In this document: in pieces, positions 2,603 through 51,605 of the stretch
Numbering within the stretch: the first letter of the stretch is position 1
Layout of the letters: every line of letters starts with the position of its first letter
Assembly: GCA_018883125.1 (NCBI GenBank)
Contig: VEQR01000008.1
Coordinates: forward strand, 1 to 57,913
Source of the DNA: Candidatus Kapaibacterium sp.
Lineage (GTDB): Bacteria; Bacteroidota; Ignavibacteria; Kapaibacteriales; Kapaibacteriaceae
Direction of reading: 5' to 3'
Length of the DNA stretch: 57,913 nt
The notes under the pieces: generated by a model
The model's database searches: none
What the model saw: only the letters and a program-made list of their open reading frames with translations
Told to the model about the DNA's origin: nothing
Position numbers and translations under genes: made by a program

Positions 2603-3187
2603 ATGACGCTGCTTCGATCAGGCGCAATTGTTGCGCTCCTCAGTGTTGCCGTTTTGTCTTCGTCGTGTACGACGGAGACGAAGGATGCAGCTGATGCACG
2701 CTCACCGTGGGATACCCTGCCGGTGCTGCGAGTGGTTTCGTCGTTCGAAGGTATCGACCAGGATAGCGCCACGTTCACAGCTGAAGCAATGAAGGGGCGC
2801 CCATGGCTTGCGTCATTCTTCTTCAGCCGCTGCGGAACGGTGTGTCCGGCGCTCAATAGTGTGCTTTCCGGCGTCTATCGTGAATTCTCTGGCAAGGTTT
2901 CTTTTGTGTCGCTCACGTCAGATCCAGAGTACGATACTCCGAGCGTTCTGCACGAGTATGCCGGACGGTATGGAGCGCAGCGGAGCACGTGGGCGTTTGT
3001 GAATCTTCCGCTCGACTCGATGATCTCGGTTTCGAGTAACGATCTCGGTCTGGTTTCGCCGACCAATCCTGATCTGCACTCCACACGATTCGTACTCATA
3101 GACACGGCCATGCAGGTACGTGGATACTTCGACAGTGCCGATCCGGCCGACGTCGAAAAACTCCGAGGAATTCTCAAGACACTATGA
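2603..3187 (+). CDS. SCO1/SenC family copper chaperone, probable lipoprotein
   Basis: Sco proteins deliver copper to, or reduce, the CuA site of oxidase subunit II. This 194-residue protein has a hydrophobic leader ending in LSSSC (Cys22), which reads as a lipoprotein signal. The thioredoxin-fold motif CGTVC (Cys77, Cys81) is followed by the third copper ligand, His159, in DLHSTRFVLID. All three expected ligands are therefore present. It starts nine bases after subunit IV and its stop overlaps the next start (ATGA), indicating translational coupling. Placement inside an oxidase operon fits a CuA assembly role. Confidence 0.92.
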   Translation: MTLLRSGAIVALLSVAVLSSSCTTETKDAADARSPWDTLPVLRVVSSFEGIDQDSATFTAEAMKGRPWLASFFFSRCGTVCPALNSVLSGVYREFSGKVSFVSLTSDPEYDTPSVLHEYAGRYGAQRSTWAFVNLPLDSMISVSSNDLGLVSPTNPDLHSTRFVLIDTAMQVRGYFDSADPADVEKLRGILKTL

Positions 3188-3630
3188 TGGACCTCAGTCA
3201 ACTCCCGGCACTCAACGCAATGCTCAACGCCATTTCGGCGGTGCTGCTCGTTGTTGGATACCGCCTCATTCGTGCAAAGAAGATCGAACAGCATCGGAAG
3301 GTGATGATCACGGCGTTTGTGATTTCTGTCGTCTTCCTGCTCTGCTACTTGTTGCACAAGTGGCATCTGTACACGACAACTGGAAGCCCCAACACTACAT
3401 TCCCCGGTGATGGTGTTTGGCGAGCGGTGTATCTGGTGATCCTTTTCACGCATGTTTCGCTTGCGGTAACAGTGCCTGTCTTGGCGGTCATTTCAATTCG
3501 TAGGGGGCTTTCCATGTCGGTTGAAGCCCACCGACGAATTGTACGATACACTTTGCCGATCTGGTTGTATGTATCGGTGACTGGTGTGATCGTGTACTTC
3601 ATGTTGTACCAATGGTTTGGTAGGGCGTAA
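3184..3630 (+). CDS. DUF420 family membrane protein (CtaM-like oxidase assembly)
   Basis: A 148-residue protein with four predicted helices and conserved histidines in helix-proximal positions (EQHRKVM, LLHKWHLY, FTHVSLA, EAHRRIVRYTLP). This matches DUF420, whose Bacillus/Staphylococcus member CtaM is needed for heme-copper oxidase maturation. The function here is transferred from that family and from the operon context. It starts at an ATGA overlap with the Sco gene; the next in-frame ATG (3187) is equally possible. Its stop overlaps the following start as TAATG. A CtaM-type role in heme insertion is likely but not shown by sequence alone. Confidence 0.85.
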   Translation: MMDLSQLPALNAMLNAISAVLLVVGYRLIRAKKIEQHRKVMITAFVISVVFLLCYLLHKWHLYTTTGSPNTTFPGDGVWRAVYLVILFTHVSLAVTVPVLAVISIRRGLSMSVEAHRRIVRYTLPIWLYVSVTGVIVYFMLYQWFGRA

Positions 3631-3857
3631 TGAAGGTTATGATCTCGATTCTCGTCTTTCTGCTTGCTAGCGTCAGCGCGCTCATGGCATGTCCTGCCTG
3701 TAAGGATAGCTATACCAAAGGCGGCCAAAACGCGGCGGTAGGGGATGCATATTCGTTGTCAGTGATGGTGATGCTGGCGGTGCCGATCACGATACTGACA
3801 ATCGCGATTGTGATGATCGCACGACGTCTTCGACAACATCCGAATTCCATCGCGTGA
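3630..3857 (+). CDS. Small membrane protein with CPxC motif, unknown function
   Basis: A 75-residue protein. It has a signal-like hydrophobic N-terminus (residues 1-19) followed directly by CPACKDSY (Cys21 and Cys24), a short polar stretch with KGGQN, a second hydrophobic helix at about residues 42-64, and a basic tail. I do not recognise a named family. The start overlaps the DUF420 stop (TAATG), so it is the last gene of the oxidase-assembly operon. A CPxC pair on the outer face, beside Sco and DUF420, suggests a redox or metal-binding accessory for the oxidase or for the downstream complex III. That role is inference only. Confidence 0.7.
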   Translation: MKVMISILVFLLASVSALMACPACKDSYTKGGQNAAVGDAYSLSVMVMLAVPITILTIAIVMIARRLRQHPNSIA

Positions 3858-3883
3858 TTCATGTGGACAACCATGCGATGTAG

Positions 3884-3906
3884 GTTCACTGTGAACGGTA
3901 TATTTG
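3884..3906 (+). promoter_or_regulatory. actA promoter with adjoining inverted repeat (possible operator)
   Basis: A TAnnTTTG -7 element (TATATTTG, 3899-3906) lies 27 bases before the actA start. Immediately upstream, at 3884-3896, is a perfect inverted repeat GTTCAC-T-GTGAAC that fills the spacer where polymerase binds. No TTG is seen 21 bases upstream, so the promoter may be weak or activator-dependent. A regulator binding the repeat is inferred. Confidence 0.6.
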
Positions 3907-3933
3907 CACGACATTTTTAGCTGAGGGAAGCGA

Positions 3934-4692
3934 ATGTTTTCACGCAAGTTCGACATGGGGGTCAAGATCGGCGGGGCTGTCGCAGGCGGCGTCGTAGCGG
4001 TACTTGTCCTCATTGGATACTTCGGATTCCGGAACAGTTTTGCCGATGTAGGCTATCGGCCTGAACAGCCGGTACCATTCTCACACAAGCTTCATGCTGG
4101 GCAGCTGCAGATCCACTGTCAGTACTGCCACGCTGGTGTGGAGAAGTCGGCCCATTCGCCAGTGCCTACAACCCAGACGTGTATGAACTGCCACACGGCT
4201 GTTAAGGCGGAGTCGCCAAAGCTTCAGCTTGTCCGCGACTCATACGAGTCGGGCAATCCCATCCAGTGGGTGCGTATACATAAGGTACCAGACTACGCGC
4301 ACTTCAACCACAGCCGCCACATCCGCGCACAGATCGATTGTAAGTCGTGCCACGGCCCTGTCGAAGAGATGGGCGTCGTATCGCAATTCAAGCCCCTTAG
4401 CATGGGATGGTGTCTTGATTGTCATCGAAATCCCGAAGCGAACATCGTGGGTGCCCGTCCGATTTCTGGCGTGTTCACCGGTAAGGTGCATGACATGAAG
4501 AACCTGCTTGATAGCAGCTATATCTTCACGCCGATCAAAGCACAGGTGCACGATAAGGGCGAACTTGAGCCTCTCACGGTTCCGCAGTATGGCGGATATC
4601 ACACCAAGGTCCCGCCGGTGACGGTTGCCGGCATCCCGCACCCGAAGAAGGCCGGCATCGGTCCGGAGAACTGCTCGTCGTGTCACTATTGA
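3934..4692 (+). CDS. actA: Alternative complex III subunit A, pentaheme cytochrome c
   Basis: ActA is the multiheme cytochrome of alternative complex III, which oxidises quinol and passes electrons towards cytochrome c or the oxidase. The 252-residue protein has one N-terminal anchor helix (about 14-31) and five CxxCH heme sites at 62-66, 83-87, 136-140, 160-164 and 247-251. Several further histidines (FSHKLH, HFNHSRH) are likely distal ligands. Five hemes is the family norm. It has its own promoter and is separated from the oxidase-assembly genes by 76 bases. The 3' end of the gene holds an alternative in-frame start for actB, which I judged less likely. Confidence 0.95.
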   Translation: MFSRKFDMGVKIGGAVAGGVVAVLVLIGYFGFRNSFADVGYRPEQPVPFSHKLHAGQLQIHCQYCHAGVEKSAHSPVPTTQTCMNCHTAVKAESPKLQLVRDSYESGNPIQWVRIHKVPDYAHFNHSRHIRAQIDCKSCHGPVEEMGVVSQFKPLSMGWCLDCHRNPEANIVGARPISGVFTGKVHDMKNLLDSSYIFTPIKAQVHDKGELEPLTVPQYGGYHTKVPPVTVAGIPHPKKAGIGPENCSSCHY

Positions 4693-44232: not shown

Positions 44233-44311
44233 CGCCGGAGGTTTCTTCGAAATGGCGAGTCGTGAAGAAGTCGTATGTTTCACCCTTAGCTTCAACCATT
44301 TGGATACCACC

Positions 44312-45016
44312 ATGCGTATGCCCATCATTCTGCTCGTGATCTCATTGGTCCTTGGTGCCTGTGCGAGCAAAGATCCGGTTTCTCCCACACCAACCGGGAT
44401 CAAAGTACCGGCTGTTGGCTCCACATTTGAGCTTGATGCCTATGGGACAGATCCTACAGGAAAGAAGATTCCTGACTCCGAGTATTCGCTTCTACAATCC
44501 GTTCTCGCCTCGGGCGCGGTCTTTGGTGGCAAGTCGGGTGTGTGGTCCATAGAGAGCAATGACAAGGTCACCGGAGAACCGGTTGATACCTCATACATGT
44601 GCCTGGATAGTAAGCAGGATGTTCTGTTATACTTTCCGGATCTAAGTGTTGATGGTTCTCCGAAATGGTTTCGTCTGCCCGTCACCACCGGTCTTGTTTC
44701 GATCGATTCGGCGTCGCAGACGGAGGACATAAATGGGATACCGCTCCAATTCACATTGAAGGTCAAAGCTGAACGCAGTACAGATGAGCCCATCCTCGTT
44801 GGCACATCCAGTATCTCTACGAGGAAGATCGTGATGACCGTGTCAGTTACCATTTTGGCTCAGGGCCAAGTCATCGAGACTATCGAATTCAAGCAGCATC
44901 TGTGGTTTGCGCCAACGCTCGGCACGTTTGCTCAAAGGAGTTCCGATGCCTACGAAGCCGGCTGCGACGTCCAGGACGGGGAATTTGTGAAGCTCACCAA
45001 GTACACACTGAAATAG
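44312..45016 (+). CDS. Lipoprotein of unknown function, copy 1 of a tandem pair
   Basis: The family is not recognised. The 234-residue protein has a lipoprotein leader ending VLGACA (Cys17), then a Pro/Ser-rich linker. A beta-rich body follows with GKSGVWS, a YMCLD cysteine and DEPILVGT segments, and ends KLTKYTLK. Its downstream neighbour is a paralogue with the same landmarks in the same order. The ATG at 44312 is taken since it begins the signal sequence; an in-frame start at 44252 would put 20 residues before it. A TATGTTTC sequence (44274-44281) may be a weak -7 element. Confidence 0.75.
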   Translation: MRMPIILLVISLVLGACASKDPVSPTPTGIKVPAVGSTFELDAYGTDPTGKKIPDSEYSLLQSVLASGAVFGGKSGVWSIESNDKVTGEPVDTSYMCLDSKQDVLLYFPDLSVDGSPKWFRLPVTTGLVSIDSASQTEDINGIPLQFTLKVKAERSTDEPILVGTSSISTRKIVMTVSVTILAQGQVIETIEFKQHLWFAPTLGTFAQRSSDAYEAGCDVQDGEFVKLTKYTLK

Positions 45017-45068
45017 TCCTGATACCGGGCCGTTGAATCTATTTGCGTCACTACTGCTCTTACCACAC

Positions 45069-45767
45069 ATGAAACATGCATTTCTTTGGGCCCTCGTGGC
45101 CGTCTTCGCCGTGTCCTGCTCGAAGGACGAACCCACATCACCCGAGCCTTCGGGTCCGCGTCGGCTGACCGTTGGTAGTAGCTTTACGTATGAAGGGTAT
45201 CAGCTCGATGCCGCCGGAATCAAAAAAGCGGGAACGGACTTCGAGGCGATCTACACCGTTATCGACTCAAATCTCTCGTATGCCGGTAAGACCGGCGTCT
45301 GGGCTCTTCGAACCACTGGGCCAACTGGCGCGGACACCGTTTACCAGTGCATTGATGCCAACAACGACCTGCTTCAGTTCACCGAGATCGGCAACGAAAA
45401 CAAGGTGTCGTTCTGGGTGCGCTTCCCGGTAAGCACCACTGCTGAGTCCAAAGATTCCACGACGGCCACGCAAACCGTCAACGGAGTGCCCATAAACATC
45501 CAGTACGTTTGGACAGTTGAAAGGCAGGGGGATTCCCCGATCCTTGTCGGTACAGAGTCCGTCACTGCCACGTCCATGGTCCTTCGACTCGTTGTCAAGG
45601 CCACGGCCTTTGGCCAGACAGTTCTGAACGTCACTATCTCTCAGTCGGCCGCATTTGCCCCCAAGATCGGTGCCTTTGTGCTCCAAAGCGGTAATGAACA
45701 GACCATCAACGCTGGCAACGTGGTTCCTGGTTTTTACCAGAAAATGAAGGCGTACACGCTGAAGTGA
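45069..45767 (+). CDS. Lipoprotein of unknown function, copy 2 of a tandem pair
   Basis: The 232-residue protein has a lipoprotein leader ending AVSCS (Cys17). The body mirrors copy 1: VGSSF near residue 35, GKTGVWAL, VYQCID, NGVPI, DSPILVGT, a FAPKIGAF block and the ending KMKAYTLK. Copy 1 has VGSTF, GKSGVWSI, SYMCLD, NGIPL, DEPILVGT, FAPTLGTF and KLTKYTLK in the same order. The pair therefore arose by tandem duplication and has since diverged. The start at 45069 is preferred to 45033. A terminator follows. Confidence 0.75.
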   Translation: MKHAFLWALVAVFAVSCSKDEPTSPEPSGPRRLTVGSSFTYEGYQLDAAGIKKAGTDFEAIYTVIDSNLSYAGKTGVWALRTTGPTGADTVYQCIDANNDLLQFTEIGNENKVSFWVRFPVSTTAESKDSTTATQTVNGVPINIQYVWTVERQGDSPILVGTESVTATSMVLRLVVKATAFGQTVLNVTISQSAAFAPKIGAFVLQSGNEQTINAGNVVPGFYQKMKAYTLK

Positions 45768-45905: not shown

Positions 45906-46685
45906 ATGAAGAACATGACGAACGCGATCTTCATCGGTGGATGCTTGGTTGCGGCCTACTTGCTGTACTACTTGGTGCTTGGAAACGCCGGCAACTTCAA
46001 CGATCCGGAGAAGCTGGATCCGAAGAATGCACTCGGTACGATCTACACCGGTGGATTTCTTGTAGGTCTGCTCATGGCCTGTATCCTTATCGCCCTGACC
46101 TTTACGATCGAGCGGATGTTCACCATCGCCAAGGCTGGTGGTAGCGGTAACGTCAAGGACTTTTCGTCGAACGTCGTAGGCCTTGTAAAGTCTGGTAACT
46201 ACGATGCTGCGATCGCAGCTTGCGACGAGCAGCGCGGTTCGCTTGCCAACGTTCTGCGCGCTGCGGTTGAGCGTTTCCGTGTTGTCGAAAAGGACGGATC
46301 GCTTAACGCTGACCAGAAGCTCTCCGAAACGCAGCGTGTAATCGATGAGAATATGAATCTTGAAACGCCGCTTCTTGAAAAGAACCTGTCGATCCTATCG
46401 ACAGTTGCATCTGTTGCCACGATGATCGGTCTCCTCGGTACGACACTTGGTATGATCCGGTCGTTCCAAGCCCTTGGTGCATCTGGAACAGTTTCGGCTC
46501 AGGCTCTTTCGATCGGTATCTCCGAAGCTCTATACAACACGGCTGGCGGTCTTATCGCCGCTATCATTTCGATCGTGGCATTCAACTTCTTCACGACGAA
46601 GGTTGACGATTTCACGTATCACATGGATGAAGCCATTCTTGAGATGATGGAAACGCTGTCGCTCAAGACGGGAACCAAGATCTGA
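45906..46685 (+). CDS. exbB: MotA/TolQ/ExbB proton channel protein
   Basis: Forms the proton channel that, with ExbD, drives TonB. The 259-residue protein has an N-terminal helix, a second helix near residues 45-67 (GFLVGLLMACILIALTFTIERM), a cytoplasmic domain, and two helices near 160-225. The conserved TMIGLLGTTLGMIRSFQ is at about 176-192. It leads exbD, exbD and tonB on one transcript. The extra N-terminal helix and the polar loop before helix 2 are common in Bacteroidota ExbB. Confidence 0.94.
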   Translation: MKNMTNAIFIGGCLVAAYLLYYLVLGNAGNFNDPEKLDPKNALGTIYTGGFLVGLLMACILIALTFTIERMFTIAKAGGSGNVKDFSSNVVGLVKSGNYDAAIAACDEQRGSLANVLRAAVERFRVVEKDGSLNADQKLSETQRVIDENMNLETPLLEKNLSILSTVASVATMIGLLGTTLGMIRSFQALGASGTVSAQALSIGISEALYNTAGGLIAAIISIVAFNFFTTKVDDFTYHMDEAILEMMETLSLKTGTKI

Positions 46686-46734
46686 TTCTGCGGCCCGAAA
46701 GCCGGCAGAGCCCCCTTCCCAACGGAGAACTTTC

Positions 46735-47259
46735 ATGTCGAAGATCAAAAAGAAGCGCCTTGGATTTGTGCTGGACATGACGCCGCTGGTGGACATTACG
46801 TTCCTCCTGCTGACGTTCTTCATGTTCACGGCCAAGTTCAAGAGTGAGTCCGAAAACCAGCAGAAGGTCGAGATCAAGCGCCCCAAGACCCAAGCCGACA
46901 CGGCAAAGCTTGCCGATAAGGACCTGGTGATGATCAAAGTGGGCGTTGATTCCGTCCTGAAGGATACGGCATGGTACGTGTCGATGATCAACGAGCAGGA
47001 CGTCGTTGACCTGCGCCGGGCGATGATCGAGGCCAAGTTCCCGGGAGTGGATGAAAAGACCGTCTCTTTCAAGGTGATGGATACGGTTTGGCTTGGAAAG
47101 ATCATTCAGTCGTGCCGGATGGTCAACCAAAAGGCTTCTTTTGCGATGGATGCCGACAGGCGTTTGCGGTATGAATGGGTGGAGAAGGCAGTGAACGAAA
47201 TGCGCAAGAACCGCGCAACAACGTTCAACTTCGTCACCGAGAAGAAGCAGGGTCTGTAA
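46735..47259 (+). CDS. exbD: ExbD/TolR family protein, first copy
   Basis: ExbD couples the proton channel to TonB. The 174-residue protein begins KKKRLGFVLDMTPLVDITFLLLTFFM, where the Asp of the LVDITF segment in the single helix is the proton-carrying residue. A ~130-residue periplasmic domain follows. It starts 49 bases after exbB. The following ExbD differs mainly in the periplasmic part, so the two copies are unlikely to be redundant. Confidence 0.93.
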   Translation: MSKIKKKRLGFVLDMTPLVDITFLLLTFFMFTAKFKSESENQQKVEIKRPKTQADTAKLADKDLVMIKVGVDSVLKDTAWYVSMINEQDVVDLRRAMIEAKFPGVDEKTVSFKVMDTVWLGKIIQSCRMVNQKASFAMDADRRLRYEWVEKAVNEMRKNRATTFNFVTEKKQGL

Positions 47260-47263
47260 GAAT

Positions 47264-47282
47264 CCCACCCTCACGGGGTGGG
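47264..47282 (+). other. Intercistronic hairpin between the two exbD genes
   Basis: CCCACCC (47264-47270) pairs with GGGTGGG (47276-47282) around a 5-base loop and has no T-run. It could affect mRNA decay or relative expression, not termination. Confidence 0.5.
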
Positions 47283-47326
47283 GAGCTGACTGAACACAAC
47301 CAAATTCGAGCGAAAACGAGGTTAAC

Positions 47327-47878
47327 ATGGCTGGTGGCGGCGGAGATTTAGGCGGAGGGAAATCCCAACGCCGGGGCAAAAAGGGAAAGCGGAAGGCCAA
47401 GAAGCGTCTTGGATTCCGTCTTGACATGACGCCCCTGGTGGACATCACCTTTCTGCTCCTGACATTCTTCATGCTCACGACGTCGATGATCACTCCACAG
47501 ACGATGGAGATGAACGTCCCGCCGGAGCTCGACGTGCCGATCGAGGTCAAGCAGTCGGAATTGCTGACCGTGCGCCTGCGTGACGACGGTACGATCTTCT
47601 ACAACATGGGCATGGACGCGCCGGAGAAGATTGCTTTGAAGGCTCTTCGTAAGGTGATCGTCGATCAAAATGTCCAATTGAAGAATCGGTGCATCGTCGT
47701 TCTCAAGGCATCTTCGAACGCCCCCTACGGTATGGTTGTGACGATCCTTGACGAGCTGAATCTTGCCGAGCCGGACATTCTGGCCGGGCTCAAGGCCGCC
47801 GGTATTAATGAGCGCAAGCGCAAGTTTACGGTTGCACCGATGGAAGCCAAAGACCAAGAGGAGATTAAGGGGCTATGA
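47327..47878 (+). CDS. exbD: ExbD/TolR family protein, second copy
   Basis: The 183-residue protein has a glycine- and lysine-rich N-terminus (MAGGGGDLGGG, then a KRKAKK stretch). It shares the core LDMTPLVDITFLLLTFFML helix with the first copy, including the functional Asp. The periplasmic half is different. Its stop overlaps the tonB start (ATGA). A pair of unlike ExbD proteins next to one ExbB and one TonB is frequent in Bacteroidota and may form a mixed complex. Their exact roles are inferred. Confidence 0.92.
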   Translation: MAGGGGDLGGGKSQRRGKKGKRKAKKRLGFRLDMTPLVDITFLLLTFFMLTTSMITPQTMEMNVPPELDVPIEVKQSELLTVRLRDDGTIFYNMGMDAPEKIALKALRKVIVDQNVQLKNRCIVVLKASSNAPYGMVVTILDELNLAEPDILAGLKAAGINERKRKFTVAPMEAKDQEEIKGL

Positions 47879-48645
47879 GCACTGCAGCAAACGTATCCGA
47901 TGCAACCGTGCTTCAGTACGGTGCCCAGGAGATCAAGGAGCTCATCCGTCAGAATACGCGGAAGGCTTTCATCCGTGTGATGACGTTGCTTTTGCTGATC
48001 GCATTCTACACCTTCGTTGGCCCTATCATCAGTGAGTGGATCTTTCCGTCACCGAAAGTTGTGAAGGTCCGCCTTGCCAAGATCAGTCTTGACGCTCTGC
48101 CCCCTCCGCAGAGCCAGACTGAAGAGGCTCCGCCCCCACCTCCGGTCAACACACCAACTGGTCCGGCGGCTCGTGCCGGTACACCGGTTCCGGTTCCCGA
48201 TGCGGAACTTGCCCCCGATGTGAAGGACTTCGCCAACGTTGATGAGATCAACCGTGCCTCAGCAGTGGGTGGCAGTGGCGAGGATAATGGAGATTTTGCC
48301 AGCAATATCGGAGAGCCGGTAAAGATTGAACGCGAAGTTGAAGAGCCGGAGAACGACTTTTTCTCGGTGGAAGAAACACCGAAGCACGATGAGACCGCGC
48401 TGATGCGTCGCGTTCGATATCCTGATATGGCTCGTCGTAACGGCATCGAGGGAACTGTGCTCATCAGTGCTCTTATCGGAAAAAATGGAAGCGTAGAAAA
48501 GATCAAGGTGATTGACAGCGACAATCAGATGCTTGATGACGCTGCGTTGAAGGCCGTTCAGGAAACTACCTTCACGCCTGCAAAGCAGAATGGTCAACCG
48601 GTCCGTTGCTGGATCCAGTTGCCGATCCGCTTCAGTCTTCGCTAA
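47875..48645 (+). CDS. tonB: TonB-family energy transducer
   Basis: Spans the periplasm to energise outer-membrane transporters. The 256-residue protein has one N-terminal helix near residues 33-50 and a proline-rich region (about 78-105, with PPPPP). A C-terminal TonB domain at about 175-256 contains RYPDMARRNGIEGTVLIS and ends PVRCWIQLPIRFSLR. AAGGGGCT stands directly before the ATG and supplies the ribosome site. It is translationally coupled to the second exbD. Confidence 0.93.
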   Translation: MSTAANVSDATVLQYGAQEIKELIRQNTRKAFIRVMTLLLLIAFYTFVGPIISEWIFPSPKVVKVRLAKISLDALPPPQSQTEEAPPPPPVNTPTGPAARAGTPVPVPDAELAPDVKDFANVDEINRASAVGGSGEDNGDFASNIGEPVKIEREVEEPENDFFSVEETPKHDETALMRRVRYPDMARRNGIEGTVLISALIGKNGSVEKIKVIDSDNQMLDDAALKAVQETTFTPAKQNGQPVRCWIQLPIRFSLR

Positions 48646-48729
48646 ATTCTCCGCGGAATACCAGTCGGTGCATAACGTGTTGCTGATTCATTGCACACAA
48701 GGCCGTCGGCAATTCGACTGGGATTCGAT

Positions 48730-48945
48730 ATGATGACTGCCCTGAACGTTGTGATTCGCTCCGCAGTTATCGTCCTCGGTGCTATGATGGTCATGGGAGT
48801 TTTGTCGGCCTTTCCGGCTGAATCGCCCCTGAACCAAACATTTGGTGTCATCGTCGTATTGTTCGGCATCTACAGAATGGTGCACTACGTTTCACTCAGG
48901 CGACGTGAGGAGCGCGACGATGACGACCATGCAAACAACACCTGA
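48730..48945 (+). CDS. Small two-helix membrane protein, unknown function
   Basis: The family is not recognised. The 71-residue protein has two hydrophobic helices (about residues 5-27 and 37-55) and a very polar tail rich in Arg, Glu and Asp (RRREERDDDDHANN). Its last codons overlap the start of the PstS-like gene in another frame, so it belongs to the TonB-cluster transcript. An upstream in-frame start at 48691 exists. No function is assigned. A regulator or assembly factor for the channel is possible. Confidence 0.6.
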   Translation: MMTALNVVIRSAVIVLGAMMVMGVLSAFPAESPLNQTFGVIVVLFGIYRMVHYVSLRRREERDDDDHANNT

Positions 48946-49876
48946 TCCCAATAGACTGTTGGCTGGTGCAGTGGCAATGCTGCTCTTTGCCAGCGTATTG
49001 ATTTCGTGTGGTGGGGAAGACCGTCCACCAACGGAGAGTGCAGTAGCCGGCGAGGTAACTGTACTTGTTGACGAGGAGATCCGTCCGCTTCTTGATTCAA
49101 TTGTGATATACCATGCCCGGGAAAACCCAAGGGCACAGGTAACACTTAAGACACTACCCGCAAGTGTGATCATGCATGGAATGATCGACCGCTCGGATAG
49201 GGTAGCGATCATTGCCCGGGACTACACCCATCAAGAAGATTCCCTGATGTCGGCTGCACAAATTGATACCGTTGCTAGGGCCCTGATTGCCCGCGACGCA
49301 TTGGTGTTCTTTGTGGCGAAGTCCTTTCCGTACGATACGATGAATGCCGAGCATATCCGGCAGTGGCTTGCCGGCAAAGGCGGTGTTACGGCATCGTATC
49401 CAAAGCTTAAACGGCCTCCAGTCTTCGTTGTGCCAGGGGGCTCGGCGGGCTCAGTGTACGGCAATATCTCGAACGTGGTGCTGCGGGGCGGTCAACCATC
49501 GAATGCTATGCTGGCAACTGTTTCAGCTCACAGCGATGTGGTCCATCAGGTAGTTGGCAACACGGATCTTATTGGCGTGGGATATCTCTCGCAAATCCGT
49601 AAGGATACGTCGGTGAAGCCCCTTCGCCTGAGTTACACGGCAGCTGATGGAACTCATGAATGGCCGAAACCCGTTCATGCATCCTACTTGATAATGGGAA
49701 AGTATCCCTTTCCCGTGCCGATCTTTGCCTACGTGAACTCCAAGCCAAGTCAGCATGATCTGGCTTTTGGGTTCATGCAGTTCGCCACTCGAAGCAGTAA
49801 GGCACAGTTCAGTTTATTCAACGCGGGTATCGAACCCGCACATGCCAAGTTCACGCTATATCTTCCAGAGGACTAA
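48920..49876 (+). CDS. PstS-like periplasmic-binding-fold lipoprotein
   Basis: Shows a phosphate-binding-protein-like (PBP superfamily) fold. The 318-residue protein has a lipoprotein leader with LISCGG (Cys30) and a body with VLVDEEIRPLLDSI, VPGGSAGSVYGNISN and FGFMQFAT segments. AGGAG lies eight bases before the ATG at 48920. There is no PstABC transporter nearby. It sits between a TonB cluster and a TPR protein, an arrangement I recall from other Bacteroidota, where it appears to serve the TonB system. What it binds is not evident, and PstS-type phosphate uptake is not implied. Confidence 0.8.
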   Translation: MTTMQTTPDPNRLLAGAVAMLLFASVLISCGGEDRPPTESAVAGEVTVLVDEEIRPLLDSIVIYHARENPRAQVTLKTLPASVIMHGMIDRSDRVAIIARDYTHQEDSLMSAAQIDTVARALIARDALVFFVAKSFPYDTMNAEHIRQWLAGKGGVTASYPKLKRPPVFVVPGGSAGSVYGNISNVVLRGGQPSNAMLATVSAHSDVVHQVVGNTDLIGVGYLSQIRKDTSVKPLRLSYTAADGTHEWPKPVHASYLIMGKYPFPVPIFAYVNSKPSQHDLAFGFMQFATRSSKAQFSLFNAGIEPAHAKFTLYLPED

Positions 49877-49883
49877 GGGAGCC

Positions 49884-51605
49884 ATGAAACGGATCGGAAC
49901 ACTGATCGTACTTCTGACGTCGGTCTTTGCGGCGTCGTACACAACGGTCTTTGCTGATGAATTTGACAACGCCAAGAAAGCCGTTGCTGCAGGCGATTTT
50001 CTGCAAGCGCTCACACATATTCGCGCGGCAATTGCCGAAAAGCCGCAGGACATTGATCGCATTCAGCTTGGTGCAGCGATCTATCTCGAGATGGAGATCA
50101 AGGATACGGCCCTGACGTATGCCCGCCGGGTGTACGAAGATGATGACGATCAGGCAGATGCTGTGGTGCTCCTTAGCAGGGCCCTAGTAGAATCGGATCG
50201 TGCGGCCGAAGCCTGTGCGCTATTAAAAAAGTTCCGTCGGAATGACGATAACGTAGAGCTGGCCCTTGCCCATGTGAACGCGCTCGTTGCCGCTGATTCC
50301 ACCAGCGCCGCAGAGCTGGTGGCCGCAACAGCCCGTCAGAAGTACCCGAAGTCGGCCGATGCATATTTGGCGCTCGGCAATCTGTACTTCAGCTGGAAGC
50401 CGATCCCGGTTTTTGACTTGGCCGTTCAGAATTACAACGACGCGATTGCCATCAATGCCAATCTTGTGCAGGCGCACTTTAACCTGGCCATTTGTTATTG
50501 GCGAATGGGCAACCGCGAGTCGGATGACGCCCTGTCAAACGAGTACTTCAATAAGTGTCTCAGCGAGTGGGCTATTGTCTCGAAGCTCGATCCTAAGAAC
50601 GCTCGTGCTTGGTATGAACAGGGGAAGATCTATTACTTGGCAAAGCGCTACCCAAGTGCTTCCAATGCACTGAAGACCTACCGCGAACTTCGTCCGCTTG
50701 GCACAGGTGAGATCATGGCGTCATGGTATCTGGGCGAGTCGCTGTTCAAGCAGGGCCTGTGTGACGATGCGAAGAAGCACCTCGAGGATGCCGCAACCCA
50801 GATCGATTCGCTGAAGCCAAAGGTAGCGGTCATGCTTGCCCGCTGTAACTTCCAGGCAAAAAAGTGGCCGGAGTGTGTTGCCTCGTATGCCTCGGCAGCC
50901 GCCGTTGATTCGCTCTGGGAGGGAATGGATTACTGGAAATATGGAACTGCACTTATCAATGCGGGTGACACGACAAAGTCTATCGACGTGATGTTCCAGG
51001 CAGCCAAGATTGAGCCAAAGCAGTGCAAGTTGATGGAGCGTTTTGCCTATCTGCTTCAGAGCAAGAAACGCTATTCCTCATCAAATGAGGTCTACCGCGG
51101 CCGTCTTGCCAACTGTTCTGACAGTACCGACGCAAAGATCCATGTGCTGATCGGCAATAACTTCTATGCTGACAGTCTTGTTGACAGTGCGATCGCAAGC
51201 TACGAGCGGGCTACCGGCATCAATCCAAAGATGATGTGGGGCATTCAGCGACTTGGTGACACGTATCTGCTTCGAGGAGATGTTGCCAAGGGGCGCCCCC
51301 TGCTTGATCAGGTCATTGCCAATGCTGCCACAACCACGTCGGCCGATGAAAAGAGATATGCCATCGCGGCCATTGCCAGTCTGAATGGCCTTGACATCAA
51401 GGATAAAAAATGGCAGTCGATCGTAGACCGCTCTTCTCTTGCCACATCTATCGATCCCAAATCCGTGGTATCGTGGTTGTACCTGGGCATCGGATATCAG
51501 GGAACGGGCGATAAGGACAAGGCGCGTTCTGCCTATCAGGAGGCATTGAAGCTGGATCCCAATAACACGTCAGCAAAGAAGAATCTCCAAAGCCTGAGCA
51601 ACTGA
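49884..51605 (+). CDS. Tetratricopeptide-repeat protein
   Basis: The 573-residue protein has a signal peptide (residues 1-24, ending TVFAD) and then many helical TPR-like repeats across its length. The last repeat is clear: WLYLGIGYQGTGDKDKARSAYQEALKLDPNN. TPR proteins act as scaffolds for protein complexes. The ATG at 49884 has AAGGGAG upstream; the frame is open earlier inside the previous gene. It ends the ExbBD-TonB-PstS-like-TPR cluster, so it probably works in the periplasm with that system. The partner is not known. Confidence 0.88.
   Translation: MKRIGTLIVLLTSVFAASYTTVFADEFDNAKKAVAAGDFLQALTHIRAAIAEKPQDIDRIQLGAAIYLEMEIKDTALTYARRVYEDDDDQADAVVLLSRALVESDRAAEACALLKKFRRNDDNVELALAHVNALVAADSTSAAELVAATARQKYPKSADAYLALGNLYFSWKPIPVFDLAVQNYNDAIAINANLVQAHFNLAICYWRMGNRESDDALSNEYFNKCLSEWAIVSKLDPKNARAWYEQGKIYYLAKRYPSASNALKTYRELRPLGTGEIMASWYLGESLFKQGLCDDAKKHLEDAATQIDSLKPKVAVMLARCNFQAKKWPECVASYASAAAVDSLWEGMDYWKYGTALINAGDTTKSIDVMFQAAKIEPKQCKLMERFAYLLQSKKRYSSSNEVYRGRLANCSDSTDAKIHVLIGNNFYADSLVDSAIASYERATGINPKMMWGIQRLGDTYLLRGDVAKGRPLLDQVIANAATTTSADEKRYAIAAIASLNGLDIKDKKWQSIVDRSSLATSIDPKSVVSWLYLGIGYQGTGDKDKARSAYQEALKLDPNNTSAKKNLQSLSN

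Follow-up and report, generated by a model that had tools for sequence, protein, structure and literature searches.

The window analysed here is a 57,913-nucleotide stretch (contig VEQR01000008.1) of a 2.9-Mb metagenome-assembled genome (MAG) whose closest named relatives are MAGs of Candidatus Kapaibacterium and of Ignavibacteria, which places it in the Kapabacteria group of the Bacteroidota. Between positions 45906 and 51605, its + strand carries seven co-directional genes that encode, in order, ExbB, two ExbD proteins (ExbD1 and ExbD2), TonB, a small protein with two predicted membrane helices (2TM), a PstS-like lipoprotein (PstSL) and a TPR protein (Table 1). None of the reading frames contains an internal stop, and the successive intergenic distances are 49, 67, −4, 84, −26 and 7 bp; the cluster proposed in a first-pass annotation of this DNA is therefore present, with gaps that range from −26 to +84 bp. 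Here we show that the seven genes belong to a unit of two modules, exbB-exbD-exbD-tonB and 2TM-PstSL-TPR, which co-occur in Bacteroidota genomes even when they are split.

Table 1. The seven genes of the Ton-type cluster in the window
Product	Coordinates	Strand	Support
ExbB-type proton-channel subunit, 259 aa	45906..46685	+	Pfam MotA_ExbB 1.9e-30
ExbD1, 174 aa, membrane-helix Asp in motif DMTPLVDI	46735..47259	+	Pfam ExbD 5.8e-15; own clade
ExbD2, 183 aa, Asp motif as in ExbD1	47327..47878	+	Pfam ExbD 8e-21; own clade
TonB, 256 aa	47875..48645	+	Pfam TonB_C 4.4e-26
2TM, 71 aa, two predicted membrane helices	48730..48945	+	no accepted family
PstSL lipoprotein, 318 aa, lipobox LISC with Cys30	48920..49876	+	PBP_like_2 1.2e-06
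TPR, exported, 573 aa, helical superhelix spanning residues 26-573	49884..51605	+	Pfam TPR families

The starts given for the last two genes are the likely ones, judged by eye from lipobox, signal peptide and spacing; the longest open reading frames (ORFs) begin at 48842 (PstSL) and 49755 (TPR), and the Pfam scan of TPR used the longer ORF from 49755. The 2TM and PstSL genes share 26 bp. The PBP_like_2 match of PstSL is only slightly above the Pfam cut-off.

The first four genes encode the ExbB, ExbD and TonB C-terminal domains of a Ton motor together at one locus. ExbB and both ExbDs fall under the curated cut-offs of the NCBIfam exbB, exbB2, tolQ, tolR, ExbD_1 and ExbD_2 equivalogs (for example, 105.6 against a cut-off of 221 for tolQ and 59.5 against 127.3 for tolR), and a search of the PDB with ExbB returned no close relative, the best match being to TolQ at 86 bits. 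The first-pass annotation called the two ExbDs unlike, and the tree bears this out: across 36 loci with exactly two ExbDs, a single branch with a support of 0.999 separates all 36 first copies from all 36 second copies. A DMTP(L/M)VD-type motif, whose Asp we take to be the membrane-helix (proton-site) residue, is found in 35 of 36 ExbD1 and 36 of 36 ExbD2 sequences. Judging by tree and motif, ExbD1 and ExbD2 are anciently diverged and both carry the proton-site Asp. In Ton motors, ExbB forms the wheel and ExbD the axle. In the published motor, a pentameric wheel encloses a dimeric axle (PMC9389320, available portion), so the simplest guess would be that each motor contains one copy of ExbD1 and one of ExbD2; unlike tolR-like genes in pairs are on record in other bacteria (PMC12204202, in the text available).

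TonB combines an N-terminal YGAxE(L/I)K motif, which is common across loci, with one transmembrane helix, a proline-rich linker and TonB_C; a PDB search with it matched C-terminal domains only. The N-terminal His of TonB is present at some loci and absent at others, and the window copy has no His in its transmembrane helix. Some Kapabacteriales clusters hold extra tonB genes: two are present in L127-L130, L128 has a third exbD, and five tonB-type ORFs, four of them checked with Pfam, lie between exbD2 and PstSL in L125 (2151-6215). A single motor may therefore feed several TonBs. One of the L125 ORFs (3050-4030) contains three TonB_C stretches and two others contain two. At a further locus, L102 (4508-12500), exbB-exbD-exbD-tonB, with a TonB that is barely recognisable (TonB_C 14.7 bits), is followed by a 1619-aa TPR protein.

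ExbD1 and ExbD2 are the only ExbDs of the genome, which also has 20 matches to the Plug domain of TonB-dependent transporters; plug domains occur in 60/60 relatives, with 8 to 56 in each. By elimination, the cluster is very probably the general Ton motor of this genome, powering its TonB-dependent transporters. A possible counterpart in Bacteroides thetaiotaomicron is BT2664-68, a co-regulated five-gene block annotated with a substrate-binding domain-containing protein, ExbD and MotA/TolQ/ExbB. In the available part of an iron-depletion study, these genes drop together by 2.7-3.1-fold and the hmu hemin-uptake operon moves in the opposite direction (PMC10434189). This response fits a general rather than an iron-specific motor; the comparison, including the match of BT2664 to PstSL, is by annotation only.

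The sixth gene was described in the first-pass annotation as a binding-protein-fold lipoprotein without any ABC transporter, which may sense or scaffold the TonB machine instead of feeding phosphate uptake; the fold, the lack of a transporter at this locus and the separation from phosphate uptake hold. The AlphaFold2 model of PstSL (pLDDT 89.7) has the PstS fold, that of a type II periplasmic binding protein (4gd5: Z 25.1, r.m.s.d. 2.9, 242 aligned), and a PDB search found no relative closer than phosphate receptors. PstSL is thus similar to PstS (TIGR02136, PF12849) in fold and distantly in sequence, but its score with the TIGR02136 family model is only 31.2 bits, for a cut-off of 206.6. No PstC or PstA permease is encoded at the locus among the window genes scanned with Pfam, whereas another PstS of the same genome (257.4 bits) precedes PstC and PstA in a pst operon on a different contig. 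Two motifs that we take to be phosphate-site motifs, GS[SDT]T and R..SGT, are present in 1/62 and 0/62 cluster-type PstSL proteins against 8/8 and 7/8 true PstS proteins, and the window protein has neither in the alignment. A regular expression for a second loop matched 2/8 true PstS and does not discriminate. In the tree, the 8 rows of true PstS proteins group in a single clade (100/100) separate from all cluster types. PstSL was therefore rejected as a phosphate-uptake protein on the grounds of its low score, its lost motifs and the separate pstS-pstC-pstA operon. With the clamshell fold kept and the two motifs lost, a protein-binding part seems more likely than a feeder of phosphate uptake. 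A lipobox regular expression matched 46/62 PstSL proteins, a count confounded by uncertain starts; the Cys is at the expected position in 15/15 aligned Kapabacteria-group relatives, and its column shows 90% or higher conservation in the PstSL profile A2.

Divergent PstS-like lipoproteins also occur in another setting, in Chlorobi-type and f36 genomes. In L085 (6477-8672), L088 (6294-8513) and L080 (4439-6807), such a gene adjoins a membrane-protein gene, which in L085 and L080 encodes a GGDEF diguanylate cyclase; these two pairs possibly link a binding protein to c-di-GMP. The genes next to all three pairs are presumably LolC/E- or FtsX-like permeases.

The 2TM protein has invariant G17, G39 and R49 in 17 aligned sequences, and six members tested had no Pfam match above the cut-off, with scattered matches below it. 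The 2TM profile used here was made from short ORFs alone, because an earlier version had also picked up PstSL ORFs. The AlphaFold2 model of TPR (pLDDT 90.6, pTM 0.67) consists of helical repeats throughout and its structural matches are generic. By sequence, the TPR family profile hits 3u4t, the C-terminal portion of a TPR protein from Cytophaga hutchinsonii, at 7.7e-64 along a single stretch of 262 colinear positions; 3u4t is possibly a solved fragment of an orthologue.

The arrangement is well kept among close relatives. A search with PstSL found the protein in 59/60 of them, and ExbD is present in 57/60 (exactly two copies in 53, three in four and none in three). Both genes are present in 57 relatives, of which 49 have PstSL and ExbD on a shared contig and strand, with PstSL 1.05-4.25 kb downstream. 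In the other eight, the two are on different contigs: PstSL is close to a contig end in G005, G006, G015, G049 and G059, which makes an assembly break likely; in G025, the contig is short and PstSL, which reads as two fragments, sits next to TonB and TPR; and G030 and G046 are true splits. Among 20 named Kapabacteria-group loci, the 15 that span the region have the cluster order, including L043, in which 2TM was missed by the profile and found by tblastn, and the other five end inside the cluster. The gene order recurs down to 13-26% identity of PstSL with the window protein. Given this persistence and the proximity in 49/57 relatives, the arrangement is beyond chance.

We then surveyed 158 Bacteroidota genomes, sampled evenly. 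ExbD was found in 158/158, and profile A2 matched 123/158 at E 1e-8, a count that includes true PstS. We fetched and classified 67 loci, five of them from Kapabacteriales outside the sample. PstSL was called cluster-type at 160 bits or more with A2, a line drawn after the scores had been seen with a profile made from diverse cluster and triplet members and thus leaning towards cluster-type proteins. A cluster-type PstSL is present at 56 loci, and 37 of them, across the phylum, carry the whole arrangement. Of these 37, 35 have ExbB, at least two ExbDs, TonB, 2TM and TPR in place, one (L059) is cut before TPR and one (L125) has the extra tonB genes. TonB without ExbB or ExbD lies beside PstSL at two loci, 2TM-PstSL-TPR stands alone at eight, and one has PstSL-TPR with no detected 2TM and no exb or tonB nearby. 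The remaining eight have no partner genes: six, mostly tandem PstS-like genes, are in families f21 and f36, and two are second copies in G133 and G151. These second PstS-like genes (L111 5935-6855 in G133 and L110 5904-7172 in G151) lie away from exb genes on a tree branch of their own. The eleven loci below 160 bits comprise the PstS of the genome itself, further PstS-like genes and the incomplete contig L106. PstS-like and TPR genes are thus not found mostly apart from the motor: PstSL precedes TPR, or the locus is cut before TPR, at 48 loci, 37 of which lie beside it.

Twelve of the genomes examined have a split triplet, wholly apart in ten and still beside TonB in G145 and G090. An ExbB profile, A5, run on 49 sample and relative genomes, covered nine of the twelve (G030, G046, G066, G076, G091, G145, G165, G176 and G198, but not G072, G090 and G181), and all nine score 324-367 bits; in 40/40 genomes chosen for the absence of a cluster-type PstSL, the best ExbB reaches at most 146.5 bits. 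Around the A5 ExbB, exbB-exbD-exbD-tonB is intact in 9/9 split genomes, and in G145, G165 and G198 the two halves still share a contig and a strand, with about 17-21 kb between them. In the midpoint-rooted tree, PstSL rows from triplet-only loci branch from within the full-cluster rows, so the joined state looks older and the splits secondary. The idea that PstSL adjoins exb and tonB genes in every genome was rejected in view of the 12 split genomes and of motors that stand alone at Chlorobi-type and examined f21 and f36 loci; chance adjacency of PstSL and TPR was rejected in view of synteny and co-distribution with ExbB. Together, these results show that the unit consists of two co-occurring modules, that the two-helix protein is part of the conserved core, and that the system is broad in Bacteroidota and not special to the window. 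We consider the link between triplet and motor well supported and hold it with high confidence.

The joint function of these proteins can be proposed from the sequences and models. We infer that the triplet would be a periplasmic coupling or regulatory module of the motor. An ExbB pentamer would surround one ExbD1 and one ExbD2, forming a heteromeric axle, and the motor would drive TonB to open the ~20 TonB-dependent transporters. In the inner membrane, 2TM would sit beside ExbB and TonB, and the exported TPR superhelix and lipid-anchored PstSL would assemble in the periplasm to hold or position TonB between the motor and the outer membrane. We prefer such a structural or positioning role for 2TM, PstSL and TPR, and count sensing and a Tol-Pal-like role as serious alternatives; that the whole is a general Ton motor with a conserved three-protein accessory module is, in our estimate, an even bet. 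A more elaborate version, in which a two-module envelope motor combines a heteromeric ExbD axle with a 2TM-PstSL-TPR clutch that couples TonB to outer-membrane clients, and also does Tol-Pal work where there is no other ExbD-type motor, strikes us as distinctly improbable. Several points weigh against the positioning role. The TPR and periplasmic-binding-protein folds are generic and do not reveal their partners. The heteromeric axle is drawn from gene content only, and two homomeric motors sharing ExbB are also possible. Furthermore, exbB-exbD-exbD-tonB occurs without the triplet at three loci (L092-L094) of family f23, presumably Chlorobi, and at L102 and L103 (f21 and f36).

Among the alternatives, PstSL might be a ligand sensor that, on binding a small periplasmic molecule, turns the Ton motor on or off through 2TM and TPR. 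The clamshell is intact in the PstSL model, and the PstS-like lipoproteins beside membrane diguanylate cyclases (in the Chlorobi-type L085 and in L080 of f36) suggest that such proteins can serve as signalling inputs; however, the loss of both phosphate-site motifs with no replacement ligand site identified, the separate tree branch of the cyclase-linked proteins and the lack of a regulatory protein in the cluster make this rather unlikely. The simpler notion of PstSL as an ordinary receptor for phosphate or an oxyanion, with TPR as a bystander in a neighbourhood due to chance or operon packing, draws on the PstS fold and the weak PstS family score. It is already contradicted by the distance of that score from the cut-off and by the genome's dedicated PstS, and the lost motifs, the long-range synteny and the co-distribution with the motor also speak against it, so that we regard it as highly improbable.

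A third alternative is that the cluster is, or also is, a Bacteroidota substitute for Tol-Pal (TolQRA, TolB, Pal and CpoB), in which motor, outer-membrane lipoprotein and CpoB-like TPR protein draw in the outer membrane during division, PstSL standing in for Pal. The parts resemble TolQ-TolR-TolA-lipoprotein-CpoB, with an ExbB/ExbD-type motor, a lipoprotein and a periplasmic TPR protein, and the single ExbD pair must serve all functions. TolB_N was detected in all three control genomes but in 0/30 relatives, and a 2025 paper, in its available text, states that tol-pal loci could not be identified in Bacteroidetes (PMC12204202). Against this, the cluster has TonB_C instead of TolA, the 20 plug domains require a Ton motor, and PstSL has a binding-protein fold with no peptidoglycan-binding OmpA domain according to Pfam (no search for Pal was made). 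PorE has, moreover, already been proposed for tethering (PMC12204202, available text). As for a CpoB counterpart, the TPR superhelix has many generic matches and scores 51.7 with tol_pal_ybgF (cut-off 90.1). We consider a Tol-Pal substitute unlikely.

With the proteobacterial Ton system, the cluster shares ExbB, ExbD and TonB domains in one operon and TonB-dependent transporters in the genome. It differs in its two anciently distinct ExbDs, its additional 2TM, PstSL and TPR proteins, its scores under the NCBIfam equivalog cut-offs and its TonB without a His in the transmembrane helix. ExbB, two ExbDs and TonB with a TPR gene nearby are described, in the available portion of the source, for Fibrobacter succinogenes (FSU_2400-2403 and FSU_2397/2398; PMC6851124), and in the Zixibacteriota locus L051 a TPR gene lies upstream of exbB-exbD-exbD-tonB, with no 2TM or PstSL found there. 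The link between TPR and the motor may therefore be older than 2TM-PstSL. The first-pass annotation had rated the cluster as an incompletely described system; consistent with this, our search of the full-text literature, from which preprints and most subscription journals fall outside, found no account of the seven-gene unit.

Upstream of the cluster lie a gene that we take to be prmC and two small lipoprotein genes (44252-45767). The latter are paralogous (31% identity over 236 aa), have no Pfam or NCBIfam match and are also present in L031, L032 and L036, and so are local to close relatives. Downstream, the order is presumably yceD-rpmF-plsX-fabH; YceD is the only one of these neighbours with a Pfam call in the window scan, and the other three names are assigned from our recognition of the sequences.

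TonB-dependent transport, for example by SusCD systems, is central to the ecology of Bacteroidota. The import machinery of many members of the phylum, probably including some gut species, has three unstudied partner genes beside its motor. If much of the phylum keeps these three extra proteins with the Ton motor, models derived from Escherichia coli would be incomplete for Bacteroidota. The cluster may also offer an entry point to outer-membrane stabilisation in a phylum for which, in the available text of PMC12204202, no tol-pal loci are identified.

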